This document shows positions 21,904 to 30,058 of a DNA stretch of 64,000 nucleotides, in pieces. Origin of the DNA: Acidimicrobiales bacterium (lineage in GTDB: Bacteria > Actinomycetota > Acidimicrobiia > Acidimicrobiales > Aldehydirespiratoraceae); contig JAVJSI010000015.1 of assembly GCA_040219515.1 (NCBI GenBank), forward strand, positions 1 through 64,000. The letters are read 5' to 3'. Numbering within the stretch: position 1 is the stretch's first letter; each line of letters begins with the position of its first letter. The notes beneath the pieces are model-generated. The model was not told the origin of the DNA, searched no databases, and saw only the letters and a program-made list of their open reading frames with translations. The position numbers and the translations under genes are program-made.

Positions 21904-22296
21904 ATGACTGCTCCCCTCACCCAAACCACTGGTCGCCGCAAGCGCGCTGTCGCTCGTGTGCGTCTGCGCCCCGGCACCGGTGTCGTCATGGTCAACGGCA
22001 AGCTTCTCGACGACTACTTCCCGTCGCGCACCCACCGTCAGAACGCCATTCAGCCGCTCGCCATCGTCGAGCTGAGCGAGGCCTACGACGTCGACGCGAC
22101 GATCCACGGCGGCGGTACGACCGGCCAGGCCGGCGCGCTGCGTCTCGGTATCGCCCGTTCGCTGATCGCCCTCGACGAAGAACACCGGGCCCCGCTGCGT
22201 GCGGCCGGCTTCGTCACCCGCGACCCGCGCAAGAAGGAGTCCAAGAAGTACGGCCTCAAGAAGGCCCGCAAGGCTCCGCAGTACAGCAAGCGCTAG
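21904..22296 (+). CDS. rpsI: 30S ribosomal protein S9
   Basis: A 130-residue S9 starting [24 protein letters not shown], with [39 protein letters not shown] and the C-terminal KAPQYSKR whose last Arg contacts P-site tRNA. It forms the usual pair with rplM, 14 nt apart. Confidence 0.97.
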
Positions 22297-22363
22297 TCGG
22301 TTAGGTCGACGGTGCTGCCCGTGCAGTGCTTTCGGCGGCCGCCCGACGGCCGATGGAGACGCC

Positions 22364-23686
22364 GTGAGCCTTCGCTTCGGCACTGATGGCATCCGAGCGG
22401 ACGCTCGCGATGCCCTGACCGCCCCGGTGGTGGCCGCCCTCGGGCGGGCCGGCGCCGAGGTCCTGGGCGCGGACGGCCTCGTCGTCGGCCGCGACACCAG
22501 AGCGTCGGGTCCCTCCCTCGCGGCTGCGCTGCATGCGGGCGTGCAGGCGGCGGGGGGAGGGTCCGTCGACCTCGGGATCGTGCCGACGCCGGCCGTTGCC
22601 CTCTGGTGTGCCCACGAGAACGTGGCCGGCGCGATGGTGTCGGCCAGTCACAACCCGTGGCACGACAACGGCATCAAGTTCTTCGCGCCCGGGGGCGCCA
22701 AGCTGGGCGACGTCGTCCAGGACCGGATCCAGACCCGTTTCGACGAGCTGCTGGCGAGCGCCGACACGCCGACCCACGCGGTCGGTGACGACCGCCATGC
22801 CGACGCGGTCGAGCGTCACGTGGCTGCGCTGGTCGCGAGCCTCGACGGCCGGACGTTGGGCGGCCTGCGCATCGTGGCCGACGCGGCCAACGGTGCCGCC
22901 TCCACCATCATCGCCGAGGTCTTCGGGCGGCTGGGCGCCGACGTGGTCGTGATCCACGCGTCGCCCGACGGCCACAACATCAACGACCACTGCGGCTCGA
23001 CCCACCCCGAGAGCCTCTGTGCGGCGGTGCTGTCCGAGGGAGCTGATCTGGGTGTGGCGTTCGACGGCGACGCCGACCGACTGGTCGCCGTGGACGGCGG
23101 CGGCCGGATCGTCGACGGCGATCAGATCATCGCCATCTGCGCGCGGGACCGCCACGAGCGGGGGGTGCTCACCGGCGAGGCCGTGGTCGTCACCGTCATG
23201 ACGAACCTGGGCTTTCGTCGATCGATGGCCGCCGCCGGCATCCACGTGATCGACACGAAGGTGGGCGATCGCCATGTGCTGGAGGCCCTCGACGCCGGTG
23301 GCTACAGCCTCGGCGGTGAGCAGTCCGGGCACATCATCTTCCGAGATCTGGCCCCGACCGGCGATGGCGTGTTGAGCGCCGTGCAACTGATCGATGTCGT
23401 CGCGCGGACCGCTCGGCCCCTCGGCGATCTCGCCTCGGCATCCATGACCCGCCTTCCGCAGGTCCTGCGAAATGTCAGGGTCGCCACGCGCCCGGACGAC
23501 GTCGACTCGGTGCTGGCGCCCTTCGTCGAGGCCTCGATGGGCCGCATGGCCGGGCGGGGTCGGGTGCTGATTCGGCCGTCGGGGACCGAGCCCTTGATCC
23601 GCGTCATGGTCGAAGCCGAGACCGATGCCGAGGCCCAGATGGAAGCGGACGGGCTCGTTGCCGCGGTCGAGTCCCTCTTCGGGTGA
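22364..23686 (+). CDS. glmM: Phosphoglucosamine mutase
   Basis: A 440-residue GlmM that converts glucosamine-6-P to glucosamine-1-P for peptidoglycan precursors. The phosphoserine loop is AMVSASHNPWHDNGIKFF (Ser at about residue 99), the metal loop is FDGDADRLVAVD, the sugar loop is GGEQSGHIIF and the phosphate-binding loop is RPSGTEPLIRVM. The GTG at 22364 follows GGAGA and gives the normal family start VSLRFGTDGIR. It is directly upstream of the GlmS-like gene, matching the pathway. Confidence 0.95.
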   Translation: MSLRFGTDGIRADARDALTAPVVAALGRAGAEVLGADGLVVGRDTRASGPSLAAALHAGVQAAGGGSVDLGIVPTPAVALWCAHENVAGAMVSASHNPWHDNGIKFFAPGGAKLGDVVQDRIQTRFDELLASADTPTHAVGDDRHADAVERHVAALVASLDGRTLGGLRIVADAANGAASTIIAEVFGRLGADVVVIHASPDGHNINDHCGSTHPESLCAAVLSEGADLGVAFDGDADRLVAVDGGGRIVDGDQIIAICARDRHERGVLTGEAVVVTVMTNLGFRRSMAAAGIHVIDTKVGDRHVLEALDAGGYSLGGEQSGHIIFRDLAPTGDGVLSAVQLIDVVARTARPLGDLASASMTRLPQVLRNVRVATRPDDVDSVLAPFVEASMGRMAGRGRVLIRPSGTEPLIRVMVEAETDAEAQMEADGLVAAVESLFG

Positions 23687-23771
23687 GGGTCAACTGCGCC
23701 GACCCCGGACCTAAACTGGCTGCGCCCGGTGGCCGACGGGTACGAAGCCAACGAGATCGGGAGTAGCACCC

Positions 23772-26700
23772 ATGTGCGGGATCATCGCCGTTGTTCGGCG
23801 TCCCTCGAGCCGACCGACACCCATGGGGGTCGACGTCGTCGATCCGCTGCTCGGTCTGGCCTCCTCGTTGCGGGGGGCCGACCGGATCACCGATGCGCTT
23901 CGTGACACCGGTGACGCCTTGGCCACGGTCGACGGGTTGCTGCAGGGCGTACCCGGCGTGCGCCTGCTGCTCGACGACGCGTCCGTCGCCCCGGCACTGC
24001 GCCACCACTGTGGCGAGATCCAGTCCGAGGTCGAGGCCATCGAGATCGCGATGGAAGCTCGCGCGGCGCTGCCCACCGCCGAACTCGAGCGCCGCAACCA
24101 CGAACTGATCCGCGTGCGCGACGGCGTCTGGGCCATCACCCGCGATCGCCTCCGTGCCGCGCAGACCGTGGCCACGCTGGCCGGCGACATCCGGAGCACG
24201 GGTGCACTGGAAGCGTTCCTCTCGGTGCACCAGGCCCTCAGCGCCATCGACCGCCTCGAGGTCCGTGGCCGCGACTCGGCCGGTCTGCACCTGCTCGTGC
24301 ACGATCACGCCCTCGACCTCGATGATCCGGCCGTGCGCGCCGCGATCGACGCCCGCGCCGGTGACCCGAACTTCGGTTCGGGCAGCGTGCGAATCGTCGA
24401 CGGTGTGCTGAGCGTCGTGCACAAGGTCGCGGCCGAGATCGGCGAGCTCGGTGACAACACGGCCGCCATCCGTCGGGCACTGACCGAGGACGAGCTGCTT
24501 CGAGCCGCTCTCGCCAACGACACCGCTCGCACACTGGTGCTCGGCCACACCCGCTGGGCCTCGATCGGCATCATCAGCGAGCCGAACGCCCACCCCCTCA
24601 ACAGCGAGCTCGTCGACGCTGCGGGTCCCTATGTCGTCGGGGTGCTCAACGGCGACGTCGACAACTTCGCCGACCTGATCGCCGAGGAAGGCGTGAAGAT
24701 CACGCCGTCGATCACCACCGACGCCAAGGTCATCCCCAGCCTCATGAGCTGCCGTCTCGGCGAAGGACTCGAATCGGCCGAAGCGTTCCGGCGTACCGTC
24801 GCCACGTTCGAGGGATCCGTCGCGATCGGCGCGTCCACCGCCAGCGCGCCGGACCGCTTGCAGCTGGCCCTGCGGGGTAGTGGCCAGGCCCTCTACGTCG
24901 GTCTGGCCGAGGACGCCTACATCGTGGCCAGCGAGCCCTACGGCGTGGTCGAGGAGACGGCCCGCTACATCCGGATGGACGGCGAGACGCCCGGCAACCC
25001 GGAGAACCCAAACGCCAGCCGAGGCCAGATCATCGAGCTCGACGGCAATCAGGCCGGCTCGCTCGAGGGCATCCTGCGCAAGGCCTACGACGGCACCGAT
25101 CTTCCCGTCACCGAGGACGATGTCGCCGTCGCCCAGATCACCACCCGCGACATCGACCGTGGCGACCACCCCCACTATCTGATGAAGGAGATCGGCGAGG
25201 CGCCGACCTCGTTCCGCAAGACGCTGCGGGGCAAGATCGTCGCCGGCCCCGACGGTCCCGCCGTCTCGCTCGGCCCCGAGATCATTCCCACCGAGGTGCG
25301 CGCCGGCCTGGCCGACGGCAGCATCACCCGAGTCCTCGTCATCGGCCAGGGCACGGCGGCGGTGGCCGGCCAGTCGCTGGCCGCGGCGCTCGACGTGCTC
25401 GTGCCGGAAGGGCAGATCAGTGCCGAGGCGATCCTGGCCACCGAGCTGTCGGGCTTCTCCCTGCGCTCGGACATGAGCGATACGCTCATCGTCGCGGTCA
25501 GCCAGTCGGGCACGACCACCGACACGAACCGCACGGTCGACATCGTGCGCAACCGCGGGGCCAAGGTCATCGCGGTGGTAAACCGGCGCGGGAGCGACCT
25601 GACCGACCGCGCCGATGGCGTGCTCTACACGTCCGATGGTCGCGACGTCGAGATGTCGGTCGCGTCGACGAAGGCCTTCTACTCCCAGATCGCGGCCGGC
25701 CTCCTCATCGCGATCGCGATCGCCGATGAGATCCTCGGCGACGAGGGTGCCGCCGACCGGCGCTCGCTGCTGGCCGGTGTCCAGGAGATCCCGACGGCGA
25801 TGGAGACCGTGATCAGTCGTCGCGGGCTCATCGGTGAGGCCGCGCGCGAGTTCGCGCCGAGTCGCCGCTACTGGGCGCTGGTCGGCAACGGAGCCAACCG
25901 CATCGCCGCACGCGAAGTGCGGATCAAGCTCTCCGAGCTCTGCTACAAGTCCATCGCCGCCGACAGCACCGAGGACAAGAAGCACATCGATCTGTCGTCG
26001 GAGCCGCTGATTCTCGTGTGCGCGGCCGGGCTCTCGGGTTCGACCGCCGACGACGTGGCCAAGGAGGTTGCGATCTTCCGGGCCCACAAGGCGGCCCCGA
26101 TCGTGATCGCCGACGAGGGCGAGTCGCGATTCGACGCGGCGCTGGCCGTGTTGCCCGTACCGGCGGTCGACTCCCGGCTGGGGTTCATCCTGTCGGCCAT
26201 GGCCGGTCACCTGTTCGGCTACGAGGTCGCCCTGGCCATCGACGCCCAGGCGATGCCGTTGCGCGAGTCGCGCAGTGCGATCGAACAGATCGCGGCCCGA
26301 TCCGACGTCGACGGCGAGGCCGCGCTCAGTGCGCTCCAGCCGGTGCTCGAACGTACCGCCTCCACCTTCTTCGACGGTCTTCGCAGTGGCGCCTACAACG
26401 GCCACCTCGAGGCCGGTACTGCGGTGAAGATCGCTTCGCTGCTGCGGTTCGCCTTGCGTTCGGCGCCGCTCGAGGCCTACCAGATCGAGTACGGCAAGGT
26501 CGGCACGCCGGCGGTCGTTCTCGATGACCTGGCGGCCGCGCTCACCGTTGGCATCGAGGAACTCACGCGCCCGATCGACGCAATCAAGCATCAGGCCAAG
26601 ACCGTCACCGTGGGCATCTCTCGTTCCGACGAGACACTGCTCGAGGTGGCCCTGGCCCGCGCCGCCCTCGATGCCGGTGCGCCCCGCGATCGCCTCAGCT

Positions 26701-27215
26701 ATGCGTCGCTGCGCACCCTGGCCGACCTCGACCCGGCCATCGCCGAGGTCCTCGGTCACACCCGCTATCGCATCGAGGGGCTCAACGAGAACGGTGATGG
26801 CACGGCCACCGCCGTCGTGGTCGATCGGGGCGGCATCAGCCAGGGCATCCCGTCTCGTACCGACCGGTCCCCGACCCTGCGGGGCACGAAGCACCAGGTG
26901 GCGCTCGAGCGCCGGGTGTTCGTCGCCCTCGGTCGCAGCGACGGACGCTCGCTCGTGTTCGTGCCCGAACTCAAGGACAACGTCACGACCGGCCTGACCC
27001 TTCTCCAGGTGCGCTTCGCCGACGAACTCTCACCGGCCGCCTCTCGGGGCGTGTTGCAGGGGTATCGCAACCGCTACTCGGCCCTGCGCGACGCGGTGCT
27101 CGAGACCGAGGACTCCTTCCGCGAAGACATCCTGGCTCAGCAACCGGTCGTCGATCTCTTGACGCTCCCGATCAACGCGTTGGCCGATCGCTGGCGAGTC
27201 GGCACCGACGAGTAG
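23772..27215 (+). CDS. Oversized GlmS-like glutamine amidotransferase/SIS protein
   Basis: A 1147-residue protein, nearly twice the 610 residues of ordinary GlmS. The N-terminal nucleophile Cys2 is present (MCGIIAVV). A mainly helical insert of about 140 residues separates it from RGRDSAGL (165-172), which in GlmS comes near residue 26. The rest of the amidotransferase follows (LGHTRWASIG, NAHPLNS, LNGDVDNFADL), then SIS domains with FRKTLRGKI, VAVSQSGTTTDTNRTVD and EMSVASTKAFYSQIA. About 300 further residues at the C-terminus are not in GlmS. Position between glmM and acpS suggests glucosamine-6-phosphate synthesis, but the added parts leave the exact substrate open. No glmS ribozyme is evident upstream. 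Confidence 0.85.
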   Translation: MCGIIAVVRRPSSRPTPMGVDVVDPLLGLASSLRGADRITDALRDTGDALATVDGLLQGVPGVRLLLDDASVAPALRHHCGEIQSEVEAIEIAMEARAALPTAELERRNHELIRVRDGVWAITRDRLRAAQTVATLAGDIRSTGALEAFLSVHQALSAIDRLEVRGRDSAGLHLLVHDHALDLDDPAVRAAIDARAGDPNFGSGSVRIVDGVLSVVHKVAAEIGELGDNTAAIRRALTEDELLRAALANDTARTLVLGHTRWASIGIISEPNAHPLNSELVDAAGPYVVGVLNGDVDNFADLIAEEGVKITPSITTDAKVIPSLMSCRLGEGLESAEAFRRTVATFEGSVAIGASTASAPDRLQLALRGSGQALYVGLAEDAYIVASEPYGVVEETARYIRMDGETPGNPENPNASRGQIIELDGNQAGSLEGILRKAYDGTDLPVTEDDVAVAQITTRDIDRGDHPHYLMKEIGEAPTSFRKTLRGKIVAGPDGPAVSLGPEIIPTEVRAGLADGSITRVLVIGQGTAAVAGQSLAAALDVLVPEGQISAEAILATELSGFSLRSDMSDTLIVAVSQSGTTTDTNRTVDIVRNRGAKVIAVVNRRGSDLTDRADGVLYTSDGRDVEMSVASTKAFYSQIAAGLLIAIAIADEILGDEGAADRRSLLAGVQEIPTAMETVISRRGLIGEAAREFAPSRRYWALVGNGANRIAAREVRIKLSELCYKSIAADSTEDKKHIDLSSEPLILVCAAGLSGSTADDVAKEVAIFRAHKAAPIVIADEGESRFDAALAVLPVPAVDSRLGFILSAMAGHLFGYEVALAIDAQAMPLRESRSAIEQIAARSDVDGEAALSALQPVLERTASTFFDGLRSGAYNGHLEAGTAVKIASLLRFALRSAPLEAYQIEYGKVGTPAVVLDDLAAALTVGIEELTRPIDAIKHQAKTVTVGISRSDETLLEVALARAALDAGAPRDRLSYASLRTLADLDPAIAEVLGHTRYRIEGLNENGDGTATAVVVDRGGISQGIPSRTDRSPTLRGTKHQVALERRVFVALGRSDGRSLVFVPELKDNVTTGLTLLQVRFADELSPAASRGVLQGYRNRYSALRDAVLETEDSFREDILAQQPVVDLLTLPINALADRWRVGTDE

Positions 27216-27224
27216 CGTCGGCGG

Positions 27225-27596
27225 ATGATCGGCATCGGCACCGACCTCGTCGACATCGACCGCTTCCGCACGGTCCTCCACCGCACCCCGGGCATCGTCG
27301 ATCGTCTTTTTCGGGCCGACGAACGGGCCTATGCCGAACAGGCCGGCGATCCGACGGCGCGGTTCGCCGCTCGTTTCGCAGCCAAGGAGGCCACGCTCAA
27401 GTCACTGGGCCTCGGCCTCGGCGCCATGGCGATGGCCGACATCGAGGTGGTGAAACACGCCGACGGTCGCCCTGAGCTCCGCCTGCACGGCGGCGCCGTC
27501 GACATCGCGGCCGCGGCGGGAGCGCAACGGTTCCTGTTGACGATCTCCCACACCGATCATGTCGCGCAGGCGACCGTCGTGGCGTTGGCGTCGTGA
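27225..27596 (+). CDS. acpS: Holo-[acyl-carrier-protein] synthase
   Basis: A 123-residue AcpS that transfers 4'-phosphopantetheine from CoA to acyl carrier protein. The Mg-binding Asp is in IGIGTDLVDIDRF and the second signature is ARFAAKEATLKSLG; HTDHVAQATVVAL closes the fold. TAGCGT at 27213-27218, six bases before the ATG and overlapping the stop of the upstream gene, could be a -10 box for a leaderless transcript. No ribosome-binding site is seen. Confidence 0.93.
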   Translation: MIGIGTDLVDIDRFRTVLHRTPGIVDRLFRADERAYAEQAGDPTARFAARFAAKEATLKSLGLGLGAMAMADIEVVKHADGRPELRLHGGAVDIAAAAGAQRFLLTISHTDHVAQATVVALAS

Positions 27597-28933
27597 TCCC
27601 GATCGTCACGCCGGACCGGATGGCGGCGGTCGATGCCGCAGCGGCCAGCGAACTCGACCAGTTGATCGAACGCGCCGGGCGCGCCGTCGCTCGCGAAGCG
27701 CTGACGATGCTGGGCGGCACCTATGGGCGTCGCGTCGTGGTGCTGGTCGGTCCGGGCAACAACGGCGCTGACGGCCGCGCCGCCGCGCGCCGGCTTCGGC
27801 ACAGTGGGGTTCGGGTGAGGGAGATCGAGGTCGGGGAACAGCCGGCCGTACTTCCGGCGGCCGATCTGGTCATCGACGCGGCGTTCGGCAACGGCCTGCG
27901 TCGGCCCTACCTCGCCCCGGACGTCCTCGCCGGGACCTCGGTGCTCGCCGTCGACATTCCCTCGGGGGTCGACGGCCTGACCGGCGAGCGCGTCGGCGAG
28001 CCGATGGCGGCCGATCGCACGGTGACGTTCGGTGGACTCAAACCGGGCCTGGTACTCGAGCCGGGTCGCAGCCTCGCCGGTGCGGTGGTGGTGGCCGACA
28101 TCGGACTCGAACTCGGTGAGGTGCGGGTCCACGCCGTCGACGATGCCGACGTGACCCGGCTGCTGTCGGGCCGGTCGGCCGATGACCACAAGTGGAAGGC
28201 CGGCGTGCGGGTGGTGGGTGGCGCACCGGGGATGACCGGGGCCGCCGCGCTGGCCGCCCGCGCCGCCCAACGGTGCGGGGCCGGCATTGTCCAGATGGCC
28301 ATGCCCGGCGGACGCGGCGACGAGGGGCCACTCGAGACGGTCGGACATCCGTTGCCCAGAGAGGACTGGGCCGACGAGGCCTTCGCATCGGTCGACGAGC
28401 GAATTCAGGCGCTCTTGCTCGGGTGTGGGCTCGGCCCGATCGACAGACCGACGCTCGAGGCCGCGTGCCGCGTCGACCGGCCCCTCGTGCTCGACGGTGG
28501 TGCGCTCCAACCGGAGCTCGTTCCGCTGCTCGGGGCTCGGGAGGCACCCACGGTGCTGACCCCGCACGACGGCGAGTGGCATCGGCTCGCCGGCCCCGAC
28601 CGAGCGGACCGGATCTCGTCGACGCAGGCATTCGCTCTCGAACACGGCGTGACCGTCGCCCGCAAGGGTCCGACCACCATCGTGGCGGCGCCCGATGGCT
28701 CGGCTCGCGTCGTCACGTCGGGCACCGCCGCGCTGGCGACGGCGGGCACCGGCGACGTACTCGGCGGTGCCATCCTGGGCCTGCTGGCCCGAGGTCACGC
28801 CGGACCCGACGCCGCCACGATCGCCGCCCATGTGCACGGTCTCGCCGGTGCTCGATTGGGGCTGGGGTTGGTTGCCTCGGAGGTGGCCGAGCAGTTGCCC
28901 GCACTGCTCGCCGAACTCCGGCCGGTCGACTGA
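27593..28933 (+). CDS. nnr: Bifunctional NAD(P)H-hydrate epimerase/dehydratase
   Basis: A 446-residue repair enzyme for hydrated NAD(P)H. The YjeF_N epimerase half (about 1-195) has LIERAGRAVAREAL, VVLVGPGNNGADGRAAARRL and DIPSGVDGLTGE. The C-terminal ADP-dependent dehydratase half (ribokinase-like) has VVGGAPGMTGAAALAARAA, LTPHDGEWHRL and the active-site GTAALATAGTGDVLGGAILGLLARG. The GTG start overlaps the acpS stop by four bases, so the two are coupled. Confidence 0.93.
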   Translation: MIPIVTPDRMAAVDAAAASELDQLIERAGRAVAREALTMLGGTYGRRVVVLVGPGNNGADGRAAARRLRHSGVRVREIEVGEQPAVLPAADLVIDAAFGNGLRRPYLAPDVLAGTSVLAVDIPSGVDGLTGERVGEPMAADRTVTFGGLKPGLVLEPGRSLAGAVVVADIGLELGEVRVHAVDDADVTRLLSGRSADDHKWKAGVRVVGGAPGMTGAAALAARAAQRCGAGIVQMAMPGGRGDEGPLETVGHPLPREDWADEAFASVDERIQALLLGCGLGPIDRPTLEAACRVDRPLVLDGGALQPELVPLLGAREAPTVLTPHDGEWHRLAGPDRADRISSTQAFALEHGVTVARKGPTTIVAAPDGSARVVTSGTAALATAGTGDVLGGAILGLLARGHAGPDAATIAAHVHGLAGARLGLGLVASEVAEQLPALLAELRPVD

Positions 28934-28948: not shown

Positions 28949-30058
28949 ATGCACCTCGTCGTGGACCTCGTCGACCCGTTTCACGGGGGATCACACCGCG
29001 CCTGGGCCGAGGGATGGACGGCGACGTCGGCGCACCGGGTCCGGCTCCACACGTTGCCGGCCCAGGCGTGGCGGTGGCGCATGCGAGGCGCGGCGACCAC
29101 GCTGGCGCCCACGCTGGTCGACGGCGCGACGAAGGACGGCCCGCCCGATGTCGTGGTCGTGTCCGACATGATCGACCTCGGTGACCTGCGGGCGCGCACG
29201 ATGACGACGCATTCCCGCGTGCCGATGGTCCTCTACCTCCACGAGAATCAGCTCACCTATCCGCGACGCCCCGACGAACCGCTCGACGCCGGTCTCGCAT
29301 GGATCACCTGGCGAAACCTCACGCTGGCCGATGAGATCTGGTGCAACTCGGCGTTTCATCGAGATGAGTTGCTCGGCGCGTTGCCGGCCTTCCTCGAGGC
29401 CGTGCCCGATCACGACCACTCCCACCTCTTGGCGGGGGTGGCGGCGCGCATGCGCGTGCGTCATCCGGGAGTCGACCTTCCGGCATCGCGTTCCCGGCAC
29501 GACCCTCCGCTTGTGCTCAGCAACCAGCGATGGCACGACGACAAGGACGTCGAGTCGGTGGTCCGGGCGATGATCCGGCTCGCCGACGATGGCGTGGTGT
29601 TCAGGGCGGCGGTGATCGGCGACCACGAGGGTGGCCACGCCGAGGTGATCGACCCGCTGCTGGACCGACTGGGCGATCGTGTCGTGGCCCGGGGGCATCA
29701 GACCCGTGCGCGCTACGAGGAGCTTGTCGGCGAGTCCGACGTCGTGGTGTCGGCCGCCCGCACCGAGTTCTTCGGCATCGCCGTGGTCGAGGCGGTCGGC
29801 GCCGGCGCCGTGCCCGTGCTGCCGCACGACGTGGCCTACCCCGAGGTCGTTCCGTCGGCGTATCACGCGTCGGTCCTCTACGAGCGGGGCGACCTTCGCC
29901 GTGCACTGGCTGCCACGCTGGCCGACCTCGAACGGCACCGGGTGGCGGTCGAAGGACTGGCCGAATCGATGGGCCGATTCTCGTGGGAAGTGGTGGCGCC
30001 GGACTACGACCGGGCGCTCGAAGGTCTGGCCGGGTCGCGGCGCAGCGGCGACCACTAG
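28949..30058 (+). CDS. QTMAN/DUF3524-like glycosyltransferase
   Basis: A 369-residue GT-B fold enzyme. The N-terminal DUF3524 signature is clear: DLVDPFHGGSHRAWAEGW (6-23) and VLYLHENQLTYP (94-105). The C-terminal half has the GT4-type nucleotide-sugar site (SAARTEFFGIAVVEAVGAGAVPVLP). Animal members (GTDC1/QTMAN) attach mannose to queuosine in tRNA-Asp; the substrate of bacterial homologues is not settled. Its neighbours truA and tsaB/D modify tRNA, which fits, but no queuosine genes are in the window. Confidence 0.85.
   Translation: MHLVVDLVDPFHGGSHRAWAEGWTATSAHRVRLHTLPAQAWRWRMRGAATTLAPTLVDGATKDGPPDVVVVSDMIDLGDLRARTMTTHSRVPMVLYLHENQLTYPRRPDEPLDAGLAWITWRNLTLADEIWCNSAFHRDELLGALPAFLEAVPDHDHSHLLAGVAARMRVRHPGVDLPASRSRHDPPLVLSNQRWHDDKDVESVVRAMIRLADDGVVFRAAVIGDHEGGHAEVIDPLLDRLGDRVVARGHQTRARYEELVGESDVVVSAARTEFFGIAVVEAVGAGAVPVLPHDVAYPEVVPSAYHASVLYERGDLRRALAATLADLERHRVAVEGLAESMGRFSWEVVAPDYDRALEGLAGSRRSGDH

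Follow-up and report, generated by a model that had tools for sequence, protein, structure and literature searches.

What makes glucosamine-6-phosphate in a genome whose only candidate for the task is a protein of nearly twice the usual length? The question is raised by a gene at 23772-27215 on the forward strand of a 64,000-nucleotide stretch of DNA from an Acidimicrobiales bacterium (positions 1 to 64,000 of contig JAVJSI010000015.1; the whole stretch is hereafter called the window). The gene encodes a 1147-residue relative of GlmS, the glucosamine-6-phosphate synthase that commits carbon and nitrogen to the cell wall. We consider that it is probably a working glucosamine-6-phosphate synthase in an elongated, deeply diverged form, with regulatory modules of its own. 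The open reading frame is unbroken, and in its frame the nucleotide differences from a same-genus relative (89% identical) number 103, 62 and 478 at codon positions 1, 2 and 3, respectively; as they concentrate at the third position, the gene is evidently kept as a protein in this frame. A 1096-residue open frame on the opposite strand (23604-26894) is read as a by-product of high G+C. Our searches of the open-access literature of PubMed Central gave no description of this long form of GlmS.

Mostly one type of GlmS per genome

The host genome (4.02 Mb, 99.98% complete) contains a single match to the SIS (sugar isomerase) domain, and this is the window gene, in a search that succeeded in 14/14 well-known control genomes. 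No NagB-type match was found in it either (the control was positive in 9/14 of the well-known genomes). The first-pass annotation of this DNA had seen no second GlmS in the window and had named a normal-length glmS elsewhere, with this gene dispensable, as the observation that would overturn its reading; the search now covers the whole genome, and no second GlmS was found there.

The same pattern holds across the class. Among 394 class genomes, each at least 90% complete, a profile of the C-terminal domain described below (the tail profile) gave matches in 194; that in G182 is due to chance, so 193 remain. A standard GlmS above the cut-off of the NCBIfam model TIGR01135 occurs in another 193, and the overlap between the two lists, compared by hand, is zero. 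Eight genomes are in neither list: one contains a long fragment (G146) and two standard-type fragments (G186 and G197), and in the remaining five (G270, G192, G166, G108 and G182) no match to the window protein was found. The long form is a real GlmS variant and occurs in about half of the sampled class genomes. When the own genome and its relatives, 61 in all, were searched with the whole protein, 54 had the long form, six the standard type only and one (G030, searched twice) neither; the high number of long forms argues that this is no chance occurrence.

Of 396 genomes sampled across the phylum, 41 gave a match to the tail profile; without the weak matches in G182 and G650 there are 39, including seven from outside the class. 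Weak matches in G007, G180, G182 and G650 were all taken as chance, and two of these four stretches look by eye like what we take to be methylmalonyl-CoA mutase; G007 and G180 were retained in the counts, since each also holds a true match. Of the 80 loci on named contigs, the names of which would place the window in the same class, 52 are labelled as class Acidimicrobiia and most others carry broader labels, while we suspect that five labels (two Acidobacteria, two Bifidobacterium breve and one Thermoanaerobacterales) are wrong.

A GlmS core with two helical inserts

Pfam recognizes a glutamine amidotransferase domain (residues 253-388) and two SIS stretches in the protein, with all other models under their cut-offs. 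TIGR01135 matches residues 243-822 with 212.8 bits, about half of its curated cut-off (418.05); as this cut-off is not reached, we file the protein as a separate long subfamily working like GlmS, outside that equivalog. The organization of the gene, as derived from an alignment of the window protein with Escherichia coli K-12 GlmS (609 residues), 45 long relatives (one in two pieces) and four standard ones, is as follows.

23772-27215, forward: the whole long GlmS-like gene (1147 residues, stop codon included)
23772-23798, forward: N-terminal strand, residues 1-9, with the nucleophile Cys2 (codon 23775-23777), from the alignment to E. coli GlmS and the structure model
23799-24200, forward: first helical insert, residues 10-143, between glutaminase strand 1 and helix 1, from alignment and model
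24201-25142, forward: remaining glutaminase domain, residues 144-457 (R165, R261, W262, N293, G294, D317), carrying three short insertions (183-215, 235-249 and 405-417)
25158-26243, forward: two SIS (isomerase) domains, residues 463-824, with E715, K719, E722 and H738
26244-26573, forward: second helical insert, residues 825-934, between SIS domains and C-tail, from alignment, model and conservation
26574-26621, forward: catalytic C-tail, residues 935-950; K943 corresponds to Lys603 (codon 26598-26600) and T946 to Thr606
26622-27212, forward: separate alpha/beta C-terminal domain of PAS/GAF-like fold, residues 951-1147, from model and conservation; missing in genome G224

By alignment the first insertion spans residues 6-143 (138 residues), in practice 10-143, given that strand 1 of the model covers 3-9. 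It contains six helices between residues 19 and 137 in an AlphaFold2 model built with 57 sequences (window and 56 loci), which bears out the first-pass annotation of about 140 helical residues after the nucleophile. The same annotation had about 300 residues following the SIS domains. The length was right (825-1147, i.e., 323 residues), but the description was incomplete, as this stretch is not one tail: it includes the GlmS C-tail HQAKTVTVG (940-948) with K943, which is flanked by two additions, one before it (two adjoining insertions, 825-845 and 848-934) and one after it (199 residues, 949-1147, beyond the normal GlmS C-terminus). K943, the equivalent of the E. coli Schiff-base Lys603, lies about 110 residues further along than usual, behind the second helical insert; a first impression that Lys603 had been replaced by arginine was ruled out by this alignment.

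The whole-protein model has a mean predicted local distance difference test score (pLDDT) of 87 and a predicted template modelling score (pTM) of 0.77. The pLDDT falls below 50 only in the C-tail (936-950) and over the three final residues. The C-tail of GlmS is mobile, and we take the low score there as a likely sign of a mobile C-tail in the long form also. The core within residues 2-949 matches human GFAT-1 (Z 41.7, 600 residues, root-mean-square deviation (rmsd) 4.8) and E. coli GlmS (2j6h_A; Z 40.7, 588 residues, rmsd 4.6), i.e., it has the glutaminase and two-SIS fold of GlmS.

Catalytic and sugar-binding motifs had been noted earlier as retained, and this applies to the other long forms tabulated as well. 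All 13 tabulated catalytic residues (E. coli numbering: Cys1, Arg26, Arg73, Trp74, Asn98, Gly99, Asp123, Glu481, Lys485, Glu488, His504, Lys603 and Thr606) are kept in 21/21 long forms, i.e., the window protein and 20 relatives. These include the glutamine site (Cys1, Arg73, Trp74, Asn98, Gly99, Asp123) as well as the isomerase site (Glu481, Lys485, Glu488, His504 and Lys603 of the C-tail). The tabulated phosphate- and sugar-contact residues are likewise kept except Ser303, which is alanine in all 21 long forms and also in 19/53 standard rows. Glu608, the final residue of E. coli GlmS, is glutamate in 53/53 standard rows and glycine in 21/21 long forms, where the chain continues. Among other constant changes relative to the 53 standard rows, the long forms have Val for Tyr25, Arg for Tyr28, Ser for Thr76, Val/Ile/Met for His77, Asp for Ile100, Ile for Gly505, and Asp at position 506 (Pro, Thr or Ala in the standard forms).

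Pairwise identity across 57 sequences averages 0.60 for the glutaminase core, 0.66-0.68 for the SIS domains and 0.96 for the C-tail. The first insert keeps its length at an identity of 0.35 with 6/134 positions invariant, and is thus under loose constraint; the second reaches 0.55 (14/110 invariant). A few relatives depart further from this plan: L046 (G010) and L047 (G011) are longer still, at 1244 and 1317 residues, and have more insertions, and in L045 (G047) the long gene is split after about residue 743 into two overlapping frames, which may reflect a sequencing error, decay or a genuine split.

A sensor-like domain beyond the catalytic end

Modelled alone, the tail domain (952-1147, about 196 residues) reaches a pLDDT of 93.5 and a pTM of 0.89, based on which it appears to be a separate folding unit. 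Its conservation (identity 0.58, 24/192 positions invariant) is close to that of the glutaminase core. No Pfam match better than E 0.0046 was found for it across 57 members, nor any significant sequence match in the PDB (best E 0.57). The best fold match is in the 180-kDa glutamate dehydrogenase from Mycobacterium smegmatis, to residues 174-361 within its N-terminal sensor part (Foldseek probability 0.98 at E 5.5e-3; Z 8.9 over 164/196 residues, rmsd 4.7, 15% identity), and none at E <=0.001 was found by Foldseek in the PDB or among viral models. The next fold matches are GAF, PAS and dCache-type sensor domains (Z <=7.2), mostly aligned only within the first 133 or so residues, and methionine-R-sulfoxide reductases, which have a GAF fold, are among the weaker ones (Z 5.7-6.4). 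The Z-scored comparison re-examines matches already made by Foldseek, and the absence of a family from it therefore carries no weight.

The matched glutamate dehydrogenase region would be a PAS domain, to judge from the gap in Pfam coverage between ACT1 and HM1 in the homologue encoded by the own genome (L227). In this large glutamate dehydrogenase, residues of about 215-377 probably form the PAS-type domain, for which Pfam has no model, while the neighbouring ACT1 and HM1 each have one. We consider that the tail domain may share a similar fold with this region, which need not mean kinship. Its invariant residues include seven arginines and lysines (R951, R972, R998, R1029, K1040, R1059 and R1101), because of which an anionic ligand would suit it.

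The domain has been lost naturally in one relative, genome G224 (2.2 Mb, 95% complete). There the protein (locus L157) ends ...HQAKTVTVGISRR, just past the catalytic C-tail, and both large helical inserts are retained; nnr starts 16 bases after the stop codon of the short gene, and acpS was not found at this locus. The tail domain thus seems removable while the catalytic end stays, as would be expected of an added module. Genome G182 (1.8 Mb, 98% complete), of the order of the window and the genus of G224, has no match to the window protein and no GlmU match above E 1.3e-17, and its lineage is perhaps losing amino-sugar synthesis.

Gene neighbourhood

The long gene sits in a row of genes of the same orientation, directly after that for the next step of the pathway.

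21904-22296, forward: rpsI (ribosomal protein S9), conserved neighbour (Pfam PF00380)
22301-23686, forward: glmM (phosphoglucosamine mutase), next pathway step (scores 463.1 bits with TIGR01455, the cut-off of which is 447.55)
27225-27596, forward: acpS (4'-phosphopantetheinyl transferase), conserved neighbour (Pfam PF01648)
27593-28933, forward: nnr (NAD(P)H-hydrate repair), conserved neighbour (Pfam PF01256 and PF03853)

Among the 80 loci on named contigs (the best 80 of 570), glmM lies at most 1.2 kb upstream of the long gene in 60 of the 65 with upstream room, and acpS or nnr at most 2.5 kb downstream in 68 of the 75 with downstream room. The standard glmS occupies the very same slot, rpsI-glmM-glmS-acpS-nnr, in three of four standard-type relatives (G207, G364 and G058, not G040). 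In G356, of the family of G207 and G364, the long gene lies apart from these neighbours, as it does outside the class in G568, G450 and G533; in G457, likewise from outside the class, glmM, acpS and nnr are retained. We read this as replacement of the gene in situ in some lineages, with a location elsewhere in others.

The own genome also encodes two MurA above the cut-off, and with glmM over its equivalog cut-off, uridine diphosphate N-acetylglucosamine (UDP-GlcNAc) should be needed by this cell. Given the sole SIS match, the absence of NagB, glmM upstream, two murA genes, the exclusion in 394 genomes and the slot shared in three of four relatives, the long form is most likely the working GlmS of its hosts, as its position after glmM had first suggested.

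The GlmU step of the same pathway looks unusual in this group. The own genome has no match to TIGR01173 above 74 bits, and 103 of 197 class genomes have one over the cut-off. Among the rows listed, those of other orders are mostly full-length, while those of the order of the window, whichever type of GlmS is present, mostly run from position 2 to about 344 of the 452 in the model and no further. No link between GlmU type and GlmS type was seen among these rows. The acetyltransferase step seems to be missing. Downstream of nnr, a gene at 28949-30058 (forward strand) matches tRNA-queuosine alpha-mannosyltransferase (QTMAN_N, E 1.9e-43).

Divergence of the long forms

Over 598 core columns (21 long forms, 53 standard ones and E. 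coli), long forms share 66% identity with one another, 29% with standard actinobacterial GlmS and 26% with that of E. coli; the standard forms share 44% with the E. coli enzyme. A quick maximum-likelihood tree places all long forms on one side of a branch with full support (SH-like approximate likelihood-ratio test (SH-aLRT) 100), the stem of which is so long (7.85 changes per column) that the family cannot be placed in the tree. It may be old or fast-evolved.

Proposed mechanism and alternative explanations

By established GlmS chemistry, Cys2 would hydrolyse glutamine, the ammonia would travel to the SIS domains, and the C-tail lysine K943 would form a Schiff base with fructose-6-phosphate. 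The large helical inserts lie beside the nucleophile strand and within the C-tail link, i.e., at ends involved in the coupling between the active sites, and could therefore influence this coupling. The tail domain would hang on the far end of the very C-tail that bears the Schiff-base lysine, and as a PAS/GAF-like module it would most likely bind a small, perhaps anionic, metabolite and tune activity via the C-tail. Plausibly, then, the long GlmS regulates itself. Tentatively, we also postulate a built-in sensor, in which the glutamate-dehydrogenase-like PAS module reads a nitrogen or sugar-nucleotide signal and gates entry into cell-wall synthesis via the C-tail, an idea that we regard as possible and somewhat short of probable.

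Several observations weigh against a self-regulating GlmS. The TIGR01135 score is half of the GlmS cut-off, the core is just 29% identical to standard GlmS, which leaves room for another sugar, and some neighbours of the active site are altered in all 21 long forms. The exclusion has blemishes: long-type genome G303 (L155) also has a 236-residue standard-type fragment that lies at the edge of a contig and shares 70% identity with E. coli (perhaps contamination), G358 (L154), again of the long type, has a standard-type gene in two frames, and G450, outside the class, holds a standard gene over the cut-off together with the long one. Contamination may also account for the latter two. The weak conservation of the first insert argues against a precise role for it. 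With regard to the tail domain, the fold match to glutamate dehydrogenase is modest, and homology by sequence could not be demonstrated: hhalign scored 23.0 against the matched region (60 column shuffles: mean 14.4, maximum 21.2; probability 3.4%), 11.0-19.8 against seven other segments of the same enzyme and 21.7 against its full length, none of them significant, and hmmsearch gave nothing significant against the region. Lastly, C-terminal tags reportedly disturb human GFAT-1 (passage of PMC7000685), which makes it less evident that a domain would be tolerated at this end.

The enzyme could be a working GlmS in which inserts and tail domain are merely structural, serving oligomerization, protection or dimer stability, with no sensing involved. 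Helical additions often serve packing, the first insert keeps its length and little of its sequence, a sensor-like fold alone does not show function, and G224 lives without the tail domain. However, the conservation of this domain nearly equals that of the glutaminase core (0.58 and 0.60, respectively, with the 24 invariant positions mentioned above) and most of its weaker fold matches are sensors that bind ligands, and we therefore judge a purely structural role unlikely, albeit one to be taken seriously. An amidotransferase acting on another sugar phosphate, with glucosamine-6-phosphate coming from an unrecognized source, would account for the low identity, the long stem, the score under the GlmS cut-off and the constant changes near the active site (e.g., His77 to Val/Ile/Met and Gly505-Pro506 to Ile-Asp), and the GlmU that is not recognizable in the own genome hints that the pathway may be unusual there. 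It is nonetheless improbable, given the exclusion with standard GlmS, the shared locus after glmM, a genome with MurA and no other SIS or NagB match, and phosphate and sugar contacts that are kept except for a Ser303 that varies in standard forms too. Of the two options left by the first-pass annotation, regulation of a GlmS and activity on another sugar, the former is plausible on indirect grounds, owing to a separate, confidently modelled PAS/GAF-like domain that is absent in one variant, and the latter is disfavoured by the exclusion. That the tail domain might add a catalytic activity of its own, making the enzyme bifunctional, we find very improbable: the domain is autonomous and conserved, and methionine-R-sulfoxide reductases appear among its weaker fold matches, but Pfam and PDB sequence searches gave nothing for it better than the E-values stated above and the fold matches are mostly non-catalytic sensor domains.

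Relation to known amidotransferases

A working GlmS with regulatory modules of its own, the reading we prefer, resembles bacterial GlmS (E. coli b3729; TIGR01135) in domain order, fold, catalytic residues and, in three of four standard-type relatives, gene slot. It differs from the 609-residue E. coli enzyme in its 1147 residues, two helical inserts and about 200 residues past the C-tail. Human GFAT-1, the best fold match of the core, is an amidotransferase regulated by a metabolite (passages of PMC7000685), and, unlike the long form, it is without such a tail domain. Its UDP-GlcNAc contacts Thr447, Thr458, Gly461 and His463 correspond, by hand count, to R605, A614, V617 and Y619 in the long form. 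The eukaryotic feedback site was thus rejected as a candidate, as all four contacts compared, out of six that also include Gly355 and Arg343, differ, and UDP-GlcNAc feedback, if present, should use another site.

The mycobacterial large glutamate dehydrogenase offers a possible parallel in the fold of the tail domain, and it too is an enzyme of glutamate metabolism to which an additional module is attached (passages of PMC8175468). The module precedes the catalytic core there and follows it in the long GlmS, and the host enzymes are unrelated. In model bacteria the control of GlmS is external, with GlmZ/GlmY/RapZ in E. coli and the glmS ribozyme and GlmR in Bacillus subtilis (passages of PMC10216114); the same enzyme step is controlled there by RNAs or separate proteins, whereas the long form has extra domains in the enzyme itself.

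The long forms depart from the usual end of GlmS, where the terminal glutamate gives way to glycine and the chain goes on, and TIGR01135 scores them below its cut-off, yet they are apparently the sole GlmS in about half of the 394 sampled class genomes. With a sensor-like domain past the catalytic end, direct allosteric control could be tested in a bacterial GlmS, and natural versions with and without this domain exist for comparison. If the built-in sensor is real, control of GlmS, previously exerted by separate RNAs and proteins, would have moved into the enzyme itself in one lineage.

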